Source: Candidatus Thorarchaeota archaeon (GTDB taxonomy: Archaea; Asgardarchaeota; Thorarchaeia; Thorarchaeales; Thorarchaeaceae). Taken from it: 64,000 nucleotides of DNA. This document shows positions 35,457 to 57,855 of this stretch, piece after piece; positions within the stretch are counted from its first letter, which is position 1; every line of letters begins with the position of its first letter. Location of the stretch: positions 1 to 64,000 of the forward strand of contig RDNZ01000009.1 of the NCBI GenBank assembly GCA_011364905.1, written 5' to 3'. The notes under the pieces were generated by a model. That model saw nothing but the letters and a program-made list of their open reading frames with translations, made no database searches and was not told where the DNA came from. The translations under genes and the position numbers were made by a program.

Positions 35457-35538
35457 CTGCGCGAGCTAGATTCAAATGATTGCGTTATTGTTGTGAAACG
35501 ATTCTCATCTCTCATGTTATGAAAGGGAGAGGTCTACT

Positions 35539-38217
35539 ATGTCTGATAGAAGAGATGCGCAAGCACCAAGCACGGTTGAAGCCATTCGAATGGCATCTGC
35601 ATCCGTATTAGGGACATCAACAGGGCTTGGTTATCCGGTTGGAAGCGCAATTGGCGCTGGTACAATGCTTGAACAGCATTCTGAGTCTGTTTCCATGAAC
35701 ATCGTACCATTGATCTTCAATATCCGTGATACTCTAATGTCATCAGAAGGATTGGAACTTCTCTCAATAGAATATGACCTTGATAGAACTCCGGGTCCGG
35801 AAGTACTTCCTGAACAACTGGTCATAGCTGGAGGTGTCGAAGGCGGAGTCGGTTCTCATGTCTGTGTCCTAAGCTGGGAGAAAGGAGTTGTTGATCCTTT
35901 CAAGATCAATGATTACATGAAGGTCCTGTCCAAAAAGATTGCAGACATAGAAAGTGCTGTGATTAACAATCAGCTGAACTATGAATTTGAAGGTCTCCCA
36001 GTCATGAGTAATTTTGCACACCGCCTAAACAGTGTCTTGTTTGTCGACATGCTTGACCGTCGATTTCAGGGGTCTTGGGATTCCTTGCAGGTAAAGCCGG
36101 ATCATGTCGATATTGACCTAATTGCCAAAATGGCTGTCACTGATGATTTTACACTCCAGCCTCCGGGGCTCAGAGTTGTTGGACGAAAGACCCTTGAGTT
36201 CAAGCTTCCAAACGAGCCAGATGAACGACTTGTCGCTCACTTTAAACGACGTATTTTGACACCGAGTGCCATAGAAACTTTGACCAAGGTTGTTCCCGAA
36301 ACCGGTCAAGCTCTTCTGCAGGAACTCAACTATTACGCCTATGCTACGGAGGAGTCAGAAATTGTAGATGGCGTTGTAAGTGCACTAGGCTCTTTTCTCG
36401 GTCAGACTATGGTGTCACTAGCTGATATCGACTCTCTCAAACCTCGCATTAACGAGTTTGTAAAGATACTTGAAGAAACCGTTAACGAACTTGAGCATAT
36501 AGTTGAGAACCACCTTGGTTCAGGGAAATCACTCACGATTGATAACCACAGGAGTGAACTGATTTCTGCTGTTTCATCACACAGTGAACTGTCCTCTGGC
36601 ATAAAGAACACTCTTGCCATGGGGATAGTTGAACGATTAATGAATTCAGTTTCTCGAGAGTTCAGTGGACACGGGGAAATCCGTGCTTGGGAACTGAAAG
36701 GAACCCTGAGGTATGCTATTGCCTATGCCAAAAGAGTCTCTCAATATTTCTCGAGGGAGCTAAACCAATACCTTGTTACGAATGCCGCAAAGAAGGCATT
36801 CTTCACTGCTCTTCAAGATTTTAAAAATGAAACAGTCGGGGGGGACATTAGTTCCACTGACATGACATTATTCGATCTCTTCTATGCTGAAGTCCAAGCT
36901 CAGCTTAACGCAGCCTTCGCCAAGGAAGCATTTGAGGGATCTGAGTATCGCGACTTCAAACAATTAATGGATGTCGTGACTCGACAACTGATAGAATCGT
37001 TCAAGACAATCGACATATGGGAGCTTATTGGGTTTGAGAAAGTAGCTGAAATTGCTGGATCTGAGATTCGACAGAAATATTCGATTCCAGAGAGCGAAGA
37101 ACTAACAGAGCATGGTAAAGCTCTGATAGTCCTTCTTGACAACTTCCAGGAACTGGTAGCTGATGTCATTCCTGATGTTGCTGACACTCTTCTTTCAAAA
37201 CCATTAATCCGTCGAATTATCGACAAGATGTTATCAGAACAGACTAGTCTAATACCTGAACTTGAAGCCGCAGTTGAAGGTGCAGGAGAGCGCCCTGATG
37301 AATGGAAAAAAGAAGCAATGGCTTGGGTTGCGAGCTTCAAAAGTGGCCTGAACGAATCGATGACAAGTTCTCAAGCTCTTCTTGCTTTATTGAATTCAAT
37401 TCATGAGATTGTTGGAGAAACAGTGACCCCGAGTGCTATGGTGGATCGCGCCAAGTTTGAAGCTGACCAGCGAGAGCAGATGTTCCTCGCAAAGGTACAG
37501 GAGTGGGAGGAGGTATGTCGGGTTCTTGAGGGTGAAAACGAAGCCATTAGGGCCCACAATGCAAAACGCGAGGAACTACTCACCGAGAAGACTCAGCAGT
37601 ATGAAGCAAAAATGCGTGAATATGAAACTGCACTCAGGGACTATATGGAAAAACTGGAGAAGTACAAAGCTGAGCAAGCTGAGCTGGCTGCCCAAGCCGC
37701 ACAAGCTGCTGAAGTTGCAGAATCACCAATTCCGTCCACTCCGCCACCAGTTGTTACATCATCTCCTCCTCCAGTAGAACCTTCAAAACCTTCGCCCATA
37801 GATGCAGAGTTGGCTGAGATTCGGGCGCAATACCCCGTGAAAGAAGAAAAACCACTGCCTCCTAAACCAGAACCTGATCCCTCACTCAAGTTCTTTGTTG
37901 AATTGCGAGACCTGTTGCAGGGTAGACTCGATCAATTGAGGGAACGAGAGAAAGACATGGAAACGACATTTGCACGAAGGGTTCTAAGACTTCAAGCTGA
38001 AGGAATTGGTGCAGCTTCAATGATTGGACTCGATATAGGTGATGAGTTCGTGGAATACCTCATGGGTTCAAAAGTTCGGAGTCTTGGAAAGTTACTTCCT
38101 CGGGTTGCACGCATGTATCTCAGAGACCCACAAGAAGAGGGATTACTGTACCTTGTAACATTTGAACACCATGCAGGCGAGTTGACTGTATCAGTAGGGA
38201 ACACATACTTGAGGTGA
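35539..38217 (+). CDS. Very large helical/coiled-coil protein, unknown (892 aa)
   Basis: 892 residues, ATG 35539 with AGGGAGAGG upstream. An N-terminal region of ~200 residues has mixed structure (a Gly-rich AGGVEGGVGSHV loop). A long all-helical body follows, then a charged coiled coil (about 640-720), an Ala/Pro-rich linker with SPPPV repeats and a C-terminal helical domain. No enzymatic motif, signal peptide or membrane helix was seen. It is followed at once by the 816-residue gene, so the two are one operon and probably form a complex. Confidence 0.7.
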   Translation: MSDRRDAQAPSTVEAIRMASASVLGTSTGLGYPVGSAIGAGTMLEQHSESVSMNIVPLIFNIRDTLMSSEGLELLSIEYDLDRTPGPEVLPEQLVIAGGVEGGVGSHVCVLSWEKGVVDPFKINDYMKVLSKKIADIESAVINNQLNYEFEGLPVMSNFAHRLNSVLFVDMLDRRFQGSWDSLQVKPDHVDIDLIAKMAVTDDFTLQPPGLRVVGRKTLEFKLPNEPDERLVAHFKRRILTPSAIETLTKVVPETGQALLQELNYYAYATEESEIVDGVVSALGSFLGQTMVSLADIDSLKPRINEFVKILEETVNELEHIVENHLGSGKSLTIDNHRSELISAVSSHSELSSGIKNTLAMGIVERLMNSVSREFSGHGEIRAWELKGTLRYAIAYAKRVSQYFSRELNQYLVTNAAKKAFFTALQDFKNETVGGDISSTDMTLFDLFYAEVQAQLNAAFAKEAFEGSEYRDFKQLMDVVTRQLIESFKTIDIWELIGFEKVAEIAGSEIRQKYSIPESEELTEHGKALIVLLDNFQELVADVIPDVADTLLSKPLIRRIIDKMLSEQTSLIPELEAAVEGAGERPDEWKKEAMAWVASFKSGLNESMTSSQALLALLNSIHEIVGETVTPSAMVDRAKFEADQREQMFLAKVQEWEEVCRVLEGENEAIRAHNAKREELLTEKTQQYEAKMREYETALRDYMEKLEKYKAEQAELAAQAAQAAEVAESPIPSTPPPVVTSSPPPVEPSKPSPIDAELAEIRAQYPVKEEKPLPPKPEPDPSLKFFVELRDLLQGRLDQLREREKDMETTFARRVLRLQAEGIGAASMIGLDIGDEFVEYLMGSKVRSLGKLLPRVARMYLRDPQEEGLLYLVTFEHHAGELTVSVGNTYLR

Positions 38218-51253: not shown

Positions 51254-52171
51254 ATTACTATCAGCCGTAAGAGATGGGGTAAATCAGCCGTAAAGACCGA
51301 GAGAATAATACGGGATGCGATTCCAAAACCTGAGACCGAAACAGGAATTGACGAATATCTCGCGAAAGCAAAATCCATCACCTGCTATGATCTTGCTAAT
51401 CGGTTCAATATTCGAATGAGCGTGGCCCGAAAGATTCTCAGAGAGAAGGAAGGTGAAGGCGTTGTTGTCCCATACATACGTGAAGGCGGATTTGTTGTTT
51501 ATACCACGCCTGAAGAAGTCGAGAAGAGAGAAGAAGGCGCTCCCATAGTAGTAGCTGATGCTCTGGAAGAAGTTGCATCAAGTGTTCCAGAAACACCAGT
51601 GATTACCGATGAGATGGAAATCGCACTGGCTGCCGCATCCGGTCCTGAGGCTGTAAAACCCAGCAGACTTGCTCGCAAACGAAGAGAGGCTGGAGAAAAG
51701 AAAGAGCGGAAGGACACACGACCTGAGGTTGTTGTTGAGCCCCTGGAACCGGCTGAACGTCAACCTGAACCAGAATCAGAACGGGAAGAAAAACCTGCGA
51801 AGAAAACAGCTCCTAAGAAGCCTGCTCCCAAGAAGACAACAAAGAAGACAGCTTCTAAAACAGCTGCGAAGAAGGATGACAAAAAGAAGCCTGCTCCCAA
51901 GAAGACAACAAAGAAGGCTGATGAGAAGGAAAAGGCTCCCAAGAAGACAGCTTCTAAAACAGCTGCGAAGAAGGACGATAAAAAGAAGCCTGCTCCCAAG
52001 AAGACAACAAAGAAGGCTGATGAGAAGGAAAAGGCTCCCAAGAAAAAAGCTTCTAAAACTGCTGCGAAGAAAGATGACAAAAAGAAGCCTGCTCCTAAGA
52101 AGGCAACGAAAAAAGCTGATAAAGATAAGGCGTCATCCAAGAAGAAAAGCGACTCAAAGAAGAAGTCTTGA
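51254..52171 (+). CDS. Ribosomal protein eS25-like with long Lys/Ala/Pro tail; non-AUG start
   Basis: The first ~85 residues read as the eS25 winged helix: KRWGKSAVKTERI, then AKSITCYDLANRFNIRMSVA and a strand ending GGFVVYT. The frame is open from 51233, but the first ATG (51416) falls inside this domain and would delete half of it. AGGAG at 51245-51249 points to ATT 51254 or ATC 51260 as the start. Beyond residue ~100 a Lys/Ala/Pro/Glu tail has 99-bp repeats. A basic tail is seen in other ribosomal proteins; eS25 of this length is unusual. Confidence 0.65.
   Translation: MTISRKRWGKSAVKTERIIRDAIPKPETETGIDEYLAKAKSITCYDLANRFNIRMSVARKILREKEGEGVVVPYIREGGFVVYTTPEEVEKREEGAPIVVADALEEVASSVPETPVITDEMEIALAAASGPEAVKPSRLARKRREAGEKKERKDTRPEVVVEPLEPAERQPEPESEREEKPAKKTAPKKPAPKKTTKKTASKTAAKKDDKKKPAPKKTTKKADEKEKAPKKTASKTAAKKDDKKKPAPKKTTKKADEKEKAPKKKASKTAAKKDDKKKPAPKKATKKADKDKASSKKKSDSKKKS
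51815..52140 (+). repeat. 99-bp coding repeats of the eS25 tail
   Basis: Units begin at 51884, 51983 and 52082, each 33 codons (KKPAPKKTTKKADEKEKAPKK type). A shorter 69-base unit, lacking ten codons, begins at 51815. They are near identical in DNA, so copy number may vary by strain or be misassembled. Confidence 0.85.
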
Positions 52172-52335: not shown

Positions 52336-52926
52336 TTACTTCAGAGCAGAAATTTGCTTGTCAACATCCTCAAGCTGAGTATCAAGTTCAGACTCCTTTG
52401 TCTTGTACTCATCTTCAGGAATGTAACCTCGCATGTAGTCAAACCGTAAGTCTGTAAGTTGAGCTTTCAGTTTGTCTTTCTGCTGGAGTAGGAAGTCCAA
52501 CTGATCACTGCCTTCCGCAGGTGCGGCCTCGGCAGCAGGAGCTGGTGCTGGTTCCATAGATGGTGCTGGTTCCGTAGCTGGTTCTGGAGCAGGCGCCGGT
52601 TCAGGAGCTTCTACAACCTCCGGTGTTGGCTCGGGTGCTGGAGCTGTAACCTCCGGCTGCGGCGCAGGTTGAGGTGCAGGAGCCGGAGTCTCAACTTTTG
52701 GGGCATCTGTCTTGACGCTTTCCATTTTCTCCATATTCTGCCTCAGAACTTCAATCTGATTGGCTATCTCAGCAAAGCTGTCATTAATCGTCTGATTGAT
52801 AGACATCTTCATCTTCGCGAAGTTTTCAGCCAGTTGATCCGCAAGCTTTTTTGTTTCAGCAACGTTCTCGGCGAAGCCTTCTATTTCTTTTAGTTTCTCC
52901 ATCATAGCTTGAATATCAAAGGACAT
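52336..52926 (-). CDS. Coiled-coil protein with Ala/Pro/Glu linker
   Basis: 196 residues. N-terminal coiled coil (IQAMMEKLKEIEGFAENV to QNMEKM), an Ala/Pro/Glu-rich linker and a C-terminal helical hairpin (FLLQQKDKLKAQL...GYIPEDEYKTKESELDTQL) whose turn resembles the repeats of the 27832-28437 protein. No enzyme motif; probably a scaffold or adaptor. Located beside the GTPase operon. Confidence 0.62.
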   Translation of the reverse strand: MSFDIQAMMEKLKEIEGFAENVAETKKLADQLAENFAKMKMSINQTINDSFAEIANQIEVLRQNMEKMESVKTDAPKVETPAPAPQPAPQPEVTAPAPEPTPEVVEAPEPAPAPEPATEPAPSMEPAPAPAAEAAPAEGSDQLDFLLQQKDKLKAQLTDLRFDYMRGYIPEDEYKTKESELDTQLEDVDKQISALK

Positions 52927-53016: not shown

Positions 53017-53868
53017 TTAAGCGACTTTTGCTTCAGCCTTGCCTTCCAAAATAGCTCTACGAATAATCTGAATGAGTCTATCTCTGTATGAAATATCAAT
53101 CGCAACCAGCTCGTATGTTGGAATTCCGAGGATTTGACCAACCCTCTCTGGTGTCAAAGCTGTTGGAAGGTCTTGTTTATTGGCAATCCCAATTACCTTG
53201 GCATCAGGGACCTCGTCTTTGACAAGTGTCACCAGCTTCTTGCTTCGCAACACATTTTCAAGCGTACTGTCTGTGACTATTATTACAACCTGCGCATTGG
53301 CAATCATTTTTGCCCATAGAATGCTGAATCGGGATTGACCCGCCAGATCCCAAAGGACGATATTTGCATTCTCAACTTCCTCAGGCAGTTTTTTGATAGA
53401 CACACCGATTGTCGGATCGTGGACAAGTGGAAGAGTTTCTCCGCGGAGAAGGTGAAGTGTTGTGGTCTTTCCGACTCCAGCGAATCCCAATATAGCTACC
53501 TTGACCATTGTGACTGCAATCTCGTCGACTTTGTCATCGAATCCATCCAAGGGCTGATTTGCAGAGGCCAGATTTGCATAGTCACGCATGAATGAGTCTA
53601 CCAGTTGTTCCATCTTTTCCTCGATTTGTGTGGAATCGTCTGCTTTGTCAGCAACGAACATAAACGTGAAGGAATCCCTCTGTGCAAAGAAGATACGCGA
53701 GATTGCTACATTCATGAACTCTGTCTTGTTCTCTAAGTCCACAGTTCCTAGGAATTGAGTGAGGTTGATCAGAAATTCAACAAGATCAGCCTTCGACTCG
53801 CTCTTTGCATAATCCTTAGAATAGAGCATATTCCCCTGTTCGCCAAGCACATACACACTTCTGATCAT
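53017..53868 (-). CDS. Longin-like domain fused to Arf-family small GTPase
   Basis: 283 residues. The first ~110 residues begin IRSVYVLGEQGNMLYSKDY and have the strand/helix order of a longin or roadblock-type domain. The GTPase follows: P-loop GFAGVGKT (128-135), switch I Thr in DPTIGV, WDLAGQSRF (switch II, 173-181) and NKQD (230-233). DxxGQ and the DPTIG switch are Arf/SR-beta-like. There is no N-terminal myristoylation site or C-terminal prenylation Cys. Its start overlaps the upstream partner gene by 4 bases (ATGA). Confidence 0.87.
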   Translation of the reverse strand: MIRSVYVLGEQGNMLYSKDYAKSESKADLVEFLINLTQFLGTVDLENKTEFMNVAISRIFFAQRDSFTFMFVADKADDSTQIEEKMEQLVDSFMRDYANLASANQPLDGFDDKVDEIAVTMVKVAILGFAGVGKTTTLHLLRGETLPLVHDPTIGVSIKKLPEEVENANIVLWDLAGQSRFSILWAKMIANAQVVIIVTDSTLENVLRSKKLVTLVKDEVPDAKVIGIANKQDLPTALTPERVGQILGIPTYELVAIDISYRDRLIQIIRRAILEGKAEAKVA

Positions 53869-55482: not shown

Positions 55483-57855
55483 ATGAAAAGCATTCCTATG
55501 ACTCCAACCATAGGAATCAATATGGACCTTGACGGCTGGAACCTCATTGTACCCTCCACTGCCACTCGGAGACTCCAGTTGGCCGGCGGTCAACAAATGG
55601 AACAAGCCGTACCTGAGGATTATGTCGTGGCTGGAATGGTGCTCCGAGCAATTGAGCAGCGTGAAGGCCGGGAATTGGAGTTCATACTTAAGTGTTACTT
55701 ACCTATAGCAATCGCAGAATCTCCATTTGCAAACAGAAGCTATCTTGTGGAACTTCTTGGCTTGACAAGTGAAACCATGATTTACCATAAACAAATCGAT
55801 ATACAATCTCTTGTCAAAGAGTTGGAGACTGACACTGATACAAAGACTCTGTTGAAATGCGTCAAGGAAGCAAGAGAACTGGTTTCAACTCTAAGAAATA
55901 CAGAAAGAACAGTGCTACTTGGGCTCATGAGCGGCTTAATTGCGCGAGGTATTGCCCAGGTCCTCGAGAGACCCTTACGAAACCAAATTGTGGATTATGA
56001 GGTTATACTCACCGGTCTTCTGAAACAAAAGGAGTTCCAAAAGACAATCGATATCCTTCAAGAAACTGCAACATTACTCAGCACAGTCAATGATGACATG
56101 ACACACACCATTGAACTCATCACATCGAAAGTTGAATCGCTAGTGGAAAGGACAGAAGCAGAATCAACACCAGTCCTTTCAAGATTAGATCTACGAATCC
56201 AATCGTTGCAAAATCAGATAGAAGCCATGGAGTCGGAGTTAACCAAAGTAAAGGCTTCTTCTTCGGACCAGAAACAAGCACGGATTACTGAGATTCAACA
56301 AACACTAAACGCAAGAACCGCAGCACTCAAACGTGACGACGACAGAAGAAACAAGATTCTTGCGAAGATTCAAGGGTCATCGCGAGAATTACTCATTGAC
56401 CGTGACAATCTGAAGGCTGAATTTCAAGCAGCGTCAAAGACAATACATGATCAACTGGCTTCAATTATCGACATGTCTGTCCCAGTCATTCCTCATAGTG
56501 TTGGGGACAAAGGAGCACTTGTCCTTTTGCCATTCTTCATTGCAGGCTTCTCCAAGAAAGGTCAACTTCGAATCGAGATATACCCAGTCTCTCAAATGGT
56601 GACTAATGGAGAGAAGGTGAGCCGGAGACGAGATTTCGTGGATGGATTCACAAGTCCTTCAAGAACCATTGATGCAATAACATCAATGTTGAATGAGCGA
56701 GCCAATAATGATGTTACTTTAAGAAAATTCATCCGAGAGTCTTCAGAGAACTTCAACCTTCTGGCTGTAAAGGAATCAAGAGAACTGATCTTAGAAGGAG
56801 CTACCTCTTTAATGGGCGATGGTCTTGTAAAGCAACCCCTTGTTGACGAACTAAGGTCTTTAATCTCTGGCACACCTGAAGCGAAACCCAAGAAACGAGT
56901 GAGGCGTCAAGTGACTCCACTTGTCAGCGATGGCTCCCTCTCGCGAGTGCGATTTCACATACAAGATGAATCTGGGCATCCAATAGAAGGGGCTGAATTG
57001 GAACTTGGGGGAATATCCGCTAAGTCCGATGATAAGGGCACAATCGTAGTTTCTATCCCGTTAAGCAAACATGAAGGAATTGTTCGAGCCGCTGGATATG
57101 TCGATAAACCTGTTGAATTCTCTCTAACGTCTTCAGGCGATGTAGCAATTCCAATAATGCTCAACTCACTTTCCCATGAAGATCACATCGCTGCCAAACT
57201 TGACGAGCTCGTAGACAAATCTCGGCGTCTTGACATGATTCGTGAGCGGCTCTGGGAGGCTTTTGAAACTCAAGGAAGTACCCTGCTCAGTATTCCTGCA
57301 TATCGCACAGCACTTGCAGAGCTACTCAGTGAGCTTGGTTATGAACCTGAATCTTGGATTGCTGAAGCGAAGATGAAATCAGGAATGGTGAAACGACTGC
57401 TAAAGAGAGATGACCGAACCGATGGCCTGCGTCGCGACATCCTCCGACTAGCTGAGGAGTCCAAGATGTTTGGAGGAATTATGCTATTCTCGGAGCTTCT
57501 CGTCAGATTGGACAATGCAGGATGGGGTACACATGCGGCTGAGATTGAGGACATCATTGAAGATATGTCCAAAGAAGGGTTGGTCCAAGGTATTTCAAAG
57601 ATTGAAGGCGGTGCACTCCTCGTAGAGTTTATTCCAGTTGGACTTACAGACGACCCGCAGGAACTTCTGAGTCTTGCATCCACAAAGGATGGACGTCTAA
57701 GTATTGAGGATGCAGTAGTTGAGCTGGGTTGGACTGAAGAACGAGTAAAGAATGCTCTTGAACTTCTTGTTAAGAATGGCGTAGCAAAAGAGCAACGTAG
57801 TTATTCAAAAAGCACACAGTACTGGTTCCCTGGTTTGAGAGGGGGAAAGAAATAA
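55483..57855 (+). CDS. Large coiled-coil protein with C-terminal ESCRT-II EAP30 (Vps22/36)-like domain
   Basis: 790 residues. The N-terminal ~230 residues are helical, a coiled coil spans about 231-330, and a beta-sandwich (GHPIEGAELELGGISAKSD, about 487-565) resembles a carboxypeptidase-regulatory-like domain. The last ~190 residues match EAP30: FGGIMLFSELLVRL (from 662), an IEDIIEDMSKEGLV helix, then the second winged helix with VVELGWTEERVKNALELLVK and the terminal YWFPGL. Vps22/SNF8 ends in the same way. Extension by coiled coil and beta-sandwich is not seen in eukaryotic Vps22. Confidence 0.68.
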   Translation: MKSIPMTPTIGINMDLDGWNLIVPSTATRRLQLAGGQQMEQAVPEDYVVAGMVLRAIEQREGRELEFILKCYLPIAIAESPFANRSYLVELLGLTSETMIYHKQIDIQSLVKELETDTDTKTLLKCVKEARELVSTLRNTERTVLLGLMSGLIARGIAQVLERPLRNQIVDYEVILTGLLKQKEFQKTIDILQETATLLSTVNDDMTHTIELITSKVESLVERTEAESTPVLSRLDLRIQSLQNQIEAMESELTKVKASSSDQKQARITEIQQTLNARTAALKRDDDRRNKILAKIQGSSRELLIDRDNLKAEFQAASKTIHDQLASIIDMSVPVIPHSVGDKGALVLLPFFIAGFSKKGQLRIEIYPVSQMVTNGEKVSRRRDFVDGFTSPSRTIDAITSMLNERANNDVTLRKFIRESSENFNLLAVKESRELILEGATSLMGDGLVKQPLVDELRSLISGTPEAKPKKRVRRQVTPLVSDGSLSRVRFHIQDESGHPIEGAELELGGISAKSDDKGTIVVSIPLSKHEGIVRAAGYVDKPVEFSLTSSGDVAIPIMLNSLSHEDHIAAKLDELVDKSRRLDMIRERLWEAFETQGSTLLSIPAYRTALAELLSELGYEPESWIAEAKMKSGMVKRLLKRDDRTDGLRRDILRLAEESKMFGGIMLFSELLVRLDNAGWGTHAAEIEDIIEDMSKEGLVQGISKIEGGALLVEFIPVGLTDDPQELLSLASTKDGRLSIEDAVVELGWTEERVKNALELLVKNGVAKEQRSYSKSTQYWFPGLRGGKK

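Follow-up and report, generated by a model that had tools for sequence, protein, structure and literature searches.

A gene in a 64,000-nucleotide stretch of a Candidatus Thorarchaeota contig (the whole of the DNA analyzed here, referred to as the window) was found to encode a long protein that joins a C-terminal EAP30 module, homologous to ESCRT-II subunits, to a large N-terminal arm, homologous to a stand-alone protein family of Asgard archaea. On balance, we lean toward the view that this protein is a second ESCRT-II subunit, specific to Thorarchaeota, and that its arm serves for targeting, plausibly directed by a small GTPase rather than by ubiquitin.

Domain Architecture of the Long EAP30 Protein

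The open reading frame extends from 55483 to 57855 on the plus strand (790 codons, with the first ATG at 55483), and the original prediction gave its product as 790 residues. Because the first 13 residues are missing in relatives, in which the conserved start corresponds to Met-14 (window position 55522), the length has to be corrected to 777 aa. AF2 modelling with 27 Thorarchaeal sequences as input gave a mean pLDDT of 82.6 and a pTM of 0.53, a value at which the single domains can be trusted and their mutual placement cannot. In the model, an alpha/beta base is followed by a coiled-coil hairpin of ~75 residues, beta-strands (331-359), helices (381-450), a beta-sandwich and the EAP30 module (table 1). 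The last consists of a helical stalk (about 552-605) and two winged helices (about 631-703 and 711-771).

The two elements that had been predicted ahead of the EAP30 part, a long coiled coil and a beta-sandwich of regulatory-domain type, were both recovered, the former as the antiparallel hairpin. The latter is placed by sequence as well as by fold among transthyretin-like/CarboxypepD_reg domains: Foldseek of the AF2 model matched the TTL domain of carboxypeptidase D (5aq0) with TM 0.85-0.86 by target length, and Pfam CarboxypepD_reg was found in 3 of the 27 full-length relatives (best E-value 6.4e-7). Conserved motifs were observed in the base domain (..PEDY...LEF.LK.YLPV..E..G..) and in the arm region of strands and helices at 331-450 (..RANNDV..RK..R..S...NLL..R..I..G...L..DGLVK). 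Modelled alone, the base domain gave a low-confidence model (pLDDT 70) with no fold match in PDB; the idea that it might be longin-like found no support. Weak matches to V-SNARE, V-ATPase I, ATG17, SMC and HlyD hairpins were put down to coil similarity.

Table 1. Features of the long EAP30 gene, its neighbors, and arm-family members in other contigs
Feature	Location	Strand	Basis or remark
Whole long EAP30 gene	55522..57855	+	777 aa + stop; Met start conserved in relatives
N-terminal alpha/beta base domain, residues 1-150	55522..55971	+	AF2 model
Antiparallel coiled-coil hairpin, helices 169-244/251-318	56026..56475	+	AF2, pLDDT mostly about 82-94
Beta-strands and C-terminal helical region of arm, residues 331-450	56512..56871	+	Coil-free HMM, hhalign
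Transthyretin-like/CarboxypepD_reg beta-sandwich, residues 473-547	56938..57162	+	Foldseek, Pfam in relatives
EAP30 (Vps22/Vps36) module, residues 552-777	57175..57852	+	Pfam, phmmer, alignment, AF2, Foldseek
Longin-domain Arf-like small GTPase	53017..53868	-	Pfam Arf 2.4e-19
373-aa protein, probable winged helix	53865..54986	-	Start overlaps GTPase gene; putative operon
Arm-family member with Rab-like GTPase	L189 5866-7932	-	
Arm-family member with longin-like domain	L186 6361-8394	-	
Arm-family member with longin-like domain	L190 7063-9144	-	
Arm-family member with longin-like domain	L191 5970-8063	-	
Arm-family member with longin-like domain	L192 6722-8674	-	
Further arm-family member	L098 4845-6467	+	

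Homology of the C-Terminal Module to ESCRT-II Subunits

The likeness to Vps22/SNF8 that had been read from the C-terminal part was borne out, and the last ~225 residues were identified as an EAP30-type tandem winged helix by phmmer, Pfam and Foldseek. Pfam EAP30 (PF04157) matched the whole protein at 6.1e-5 and the C-terminus alone at 5.9e-6, with scores (23.3-26.6 bits) that narrowly missed the gathering cut-off of 26.8 bits; 19 of the 27 full-length relatives matched the same Pfam family independently at E<=1e-3 (best 1.1e-9). In a phmmer search against PDB chains, human SNF8/Vps22 (8.9e-9) and yeast Vps22 (2.7e-5) came out on top, all further matches having E-values >0.4. Human and yeast ESCRT-II chains also ranked first when the AF2 model was compared by Foldseek (3cuq_A 4.3e-7, 1u5t_A 2.6e-5, 2zme_B 8.1e-5, probability 1.00), with human SNF8, yeast Vps22 and human VPS36 among the top matches; the winged helices were thus assigned to ESCRT-II and not to an unrelated family.

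Multiple alignment with Vps22 from many Asgard families showed collinearity over the stalk and the two winged helices. The motifs GG(I/L)M, W..ER and Y.FP are common to the long protein and Asgard Vps22, and the Vps22 key words noticed earlier were found in order (GGIM..SEL, W.EER..AL and Y.FPGL). A profile of this joint alignment found human SNF8 at 1.9e-34 and VPS36 at 1e-11, matches which are supportive and not independent since the profile consists mostly of ordinary Asgard Vps22s. Similarity across the module, together with the stalk/two-winged-helix fold, places it in the EAP30 family (PF04157) and argues strongly for homology to ESCRT-II subunits.

Ordinary Vps22 and Other ESCRT Genes

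A separate EAP30 protein of 263 aa, the ordinary Vps22, is encoded away from the long gene on contig C87, in a cluster with Vps25, Vps4, Snf7-type ESCRT-III and a zinc/coiled-coil protein resembling the Znr_CC_PH_SB family. The Vps25-like gene that the original prediction suggested looking for was therefore present elsewhere in the genome (PF05871, 2.4e-13, G000:C87; L097 9247-9981). Since the ordinary Vps22 lies beside Vps25 and Vps4, the long protein, about three times its length, has to be counted as a second member of the EAP30 family in this genome, and the possibility that it represents the only or ordinary Vps22 was ruled out; its gene lies outside the ESCRT cluster, where an Asgard Vps22 orthologue would be expected to lie inside it. 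Hence, the earlier idea of an Asgard ESCRT-II variant holds as far as EAP30/Vps22 homology is concerned, but the ordinary Vps22 is another protein. With Vps25, Vps4, Snf7-type ESCRT-III and a separate Vps22 in the same genome, partners for an ESCRT-II complex are available.

EAP30 trees, tried twice and marked by long branches, unite the long proteins in one clade (100/100) but tie this clade to neither Vps22 nor Vps36 among the EAP30s; a joint clade with Thorarchaeal Vps22 was not rejected (p-AU 0.44). Neither a GLUE domain (PF11605) nor Vps36-type zinc fingers were detected in the long protein. In the genome, no GLUE was found above the cut-off, no ubiquitin was found at significance, and Vps28 and Vps23-core matches were below the cut-off; as the genome is 81% complete, these absences are provisional. 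Two tandem small-GTPase-like paralogues of ~420-430 aa with an extra N-terminal domain were also observed a few kb from the canonical ESCRT cluster (L097:3199-5878, G000 contig C87).

The Arm Family in Asgard Archaea

A profile of residues 1-462 found proteins of ~545-611 aa in other Asgard lineages, which form a stand-alone family (~550 aa) homologous to the N-terminal ~460 residues of the long protein and named by no Pfam or NCBIfam family. This homology extends outside the coiled coil: a coil-free HMM of the central arm region matched the stand-alone proteins (best 8.7e-10, with zero matches in shuffled controls), and hhalign comparison of the non-coil parts gave 6e-9 for the base domain and 4e-7 for region 331-450. 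The N-terminal part thus does contain the long coiled coil by which it had been described, but it is also a member of an Asgard-wide family. Some weak matches of the N-terminal profile in other Asgards (338-382 aa, columns ~174-317) were rejected as coil only. With the stand-alone-family profile, matches at E<=1e-5 were obtained in 104 of 196 Asgard genomes; the stand-alone form itself occurs in no more than that number, because in a few f1 genomes the match is the long protein. The genome under study has a separate stand-alone copy on contig C43.

Several members of this family carry additional domains. L189 begins with a Rab-like GTPase (Pfam Ras, 3.7e-56) and represents the one lineage in which such a fusion was shown by sequence, a 684-aa relative in G039 being left out. 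Longin-like N-termini were detected in L186, L190, L191 and L192, and a C-terminal zinc ribbon in a Thorarchaeal copy (L194), whose motif is also visible in L195, L196 and L201. The Pfam call of the fused longins is weak (0.006-0.02), and a profile of the longin-like N-termini with the window longin included found MON1 and AP sigma subunits at 0.008-0.02, outranked by a chance-level match to an encapsulin cargo protein (0.006). A fused-longin profile built without the window sequence matched the longin of the window GTPase at 5.3e-6. Beside the stand-alone members tested, no GTPase or longin was detected except the fused one. Judging from these sequences, the arm family is a candidate trafficking adaptor family.

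Distribution and Genomic Context

Analysis of 196 Asgard genomes (47 Thorarchaeota and 149 others) revealed the full-length form in 35 of the 47 genomes sampled from the window's family; the other 149 yielded no example. A single-sequence scan of the genome contigs found no relatives; an alignment-based scan recovered them. Among the 28 relatives found in genome contigs, 27 are titled Thorarchaeota and one, with the same gene order, Lokiarchaeota. The latter (L086, RBin_111) has the Thorarchaeal gene order and protein, and its organism name is probably wrong.

On the minus-strand side of the locus, a CdvA-like coiled-coil protein, the longin-GTPase, the winged-helix protein and a zinc-finger gene are kept in order; after the long gene come a YdjM-like membrane protein and then a GluRS-like gene, an order kept across the family (synteny with the longin-GTPase operon was judged in relatives whose flanks reach far enough). 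The longin Arf-like GTPase is 77-96% identical across most Thorarchaeota compared and about 70-96% across Thorarchaeota in general, and the 373-aa protein has no clear Pfam match. In five genomes from four genera (G002, G012, G036, G020 and G061), the long gene alone is missing from a locus that is otherwise kept, at a minimum over the stretch between the GTPase operon and YdjM. Several near-complete Thorarchaeota without the long gene keep an ordinary Vps22-type protein and the longin-GTPase, indicating that neither depends on the long protein. The pair of the GTPase and the 373-aa protein is kept even in Thorarchaeota without the long EAP30 gene.

The CdvA-like protein (52336-52926, minus strand) has a Pro/Ala-rich middle and matches Pfam CdvA at 0.0032, below the cut-off. 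Where the contigs of the Thorarchaeota compared extend far enough, its gene nearly always adjoins that of the longin-GTPase; a link to cell division is possible.

Possible Function of the Long Protein

In ESCRT-II, EAP30 stalks pair with each other, and Vps25, the recruiter of ESCRT-III, is bound by the last winged helix. Vps36 brings a targeting domain to the complex, which is GLUE in eukaryotes. By analogy, the stalk of the long protein would dimerize, either with that of a second copy or with that of the ordinary Vps22, and its last winged helix would bind Vps25, which would in turn recruit ESCRT-III. The N-terminal 550 residues may stand in for the GLUE domain of eukaryotic Vps36, such that a rigid coiled-coil arm on its alpha/beta base, together with the transthyretin-like sandwich, would place ESCRT-II at a membrane or partner. 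The built-in tether suggested by the original prediction would fit this modelled anatomy. As other members of the arm family are joined to a Rab-like GTPase or longin, and a longin-GTPase gene is adjacent, the placement cue may plausibly be a small GTPase instead of ubiquitin. We infer Vps25 binding, dimerization, tethering and GTPase control from these comparisons.

A more specific form of this proposal, which we put forward tentatively and with some doubt, is a GTPase-coupled ESCRT-II: the ordinary Vps22 and the long protein would form a heterodimer, whose arm, as one member of an unrecognized Asgard-wide adaptor/tether family, would bind a longin/Arf- or Rab-like GTPase and guide ESCRT onto membranes without ubiquitin. 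The dispensability of the long gene in several genera, its place outside the ESCRT cluster, its generally syntenic neighborhood and the failure to detect a GTPase beside the tested stand-alone relatives speak against the proposed mechanism, in the general as in the specific form.

An ESCRT-II-type subunit without any link to a GTPase is also possible, if not what we would expect. The arm would then be a structural spacer or a cell-division scaffold, and the fusions found elsewhere would reflect different uses of it. Adjacency to the GTPase is weak evidence because the whole block, including housekeeping genes, is syntenic throughout; moreover, the GTPase operon stays where the long gene is missing, and a GTPase fusion was confirmed by sequence in one lineage only. 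However, three other Asgard families join the arm to longins related to that of the window GTPase, which speaks against this reading.

A role of the winged helices on DNA, in a large transcription or chromatin factor that had acquired an EAP30-like module, is improbable. Winged helices commonly bind DNA, and single members show weak TrmB/DUF7343 similarity, but the full stalk and two winged helices align collinearly with Vps22, ESCRT-II supplies the best PDB matches in both sequence and fold, and a long coiled-coil arm with trafficking-type fusions in its family would be unusual for transcription factors. Very improbable, and already disfavored by a codon test, is the view that the gene is a paralogue which is decaying or dispensable and has no specific role: although it is missing from an otherwise intact locus in several Thorarchaeal genera, strong purifying selection acts on the long form (pN 0.12 versus pS 0.77 to the nearest relative; ratio about 0.15 over all domains), EAP30 is its best-conserved and most constrained domain, and in many genera, at identities between 81% and 37%, the frame is open throughout.

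Comparison with Known Systems

Vps22/SNF8 has the same helical stalk and two winged helices, in the same order and with the same key residues (fold match to 3cuq/2zme/1u5t), but it is about 250 aa long and has no arm, whereas the long protein has 550 extra residues before EAP30 and lacks the first part of Asgard Vps22 (MGLRDIEK...). Vps36 likewise combines a C-terminal EAP30 with a large N-terminal extra part in genomes that also have Vps22; its GLUE/PH domain and zinc fingers have no detected counterpart in the long protein. The stand-alone Asgard coiled-coil family has neither the transthyretin-like nor the EAP30 domain; what some of its members have in addition to the arm is a Rab-like GTPase, a longin or a zinc ribbon.

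Thorarchaea are relatives of the archaea from which eukaryotes arose. In the main text of Hatano et al. 2022 (PMC9192718), a single Vps22/36-type gene per Asgard genome and no Vps36 are described, as is self-interaction of Vps22, Thorarchaeota included; the lack of a ubiquitin homologue in Thorarchaeota reported there agrees with our null search. This picture left both the ESCRT recruiter and a second stalk subunit open in Thorarchaeota, for which a conserved second EAP30 protein with a long arm is a concrete candidate.

A variety of EAP30-type proteins in Asgard, extended by SB or zinc ribbons, is described in the main text of Makarova et al. 2024 (PMC10936438), together with many multidomain proteins of patchy occurrence. 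Among these, SB-Vps22 (cog.002769) and Zn-ribbon wH proteins (cog.002441) are likewise patchy and lineage-specific with added domains; the combination of arm, transthyretin-like domain and EAP30 is absent from that text. The arCOG09748 proteins of Thermococcales ESCRT loci are described there as having an N-terminal helical domain, a coiled coil, a globular domain and a C-terminal wH; a single wH and no stated EAP30 stalk set them apart from the long protein. Longin-GTPase fusions in Asgard are already known (PMC10933270), and we found no description of the present domain combination or of the arm family in the main texts consulted. We also observed non-Thorarchaeal Asgard EAP30 proteins with extra N-terminal domains such as TPR repeats, a zinc ribbon or unknown domains (L137, L138, L118, L119 and L146), which shows frequent reuse of EAP30 modules.

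The unnamed arm family occurs in about half of the sampled Asgard genomes and, depending on the lineage, is combined with a Rab-like GTPase, a longin, a zinc ribbon or an ESCRT-II domain. Its fusions to membrane-traffic GTPases suggest a home-made route by which the membrane-cutting machinery is sent to its target. Should the arm act as a tether or as an effector of GTPases, prokaryotes would have a counterpart of the eukaryotic link between Rab-type GTPases and membrane machinery.

Other Genes in the Window

Two other proteins encoded on the plus strand of the window may be mentioned. The protein at 51416-52171 (stop-to-stop frame from 51233) has a Lys/Ala/Pro-rich, repetitive, histone-H1-like C-terminal tail and possibly a winged-helix N-terminus. 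The protein at 35497-38214 (906 aa) contains a coiled coil and a proline-rich stretch and weakly matched the fused-longin profile (2.6e-4).
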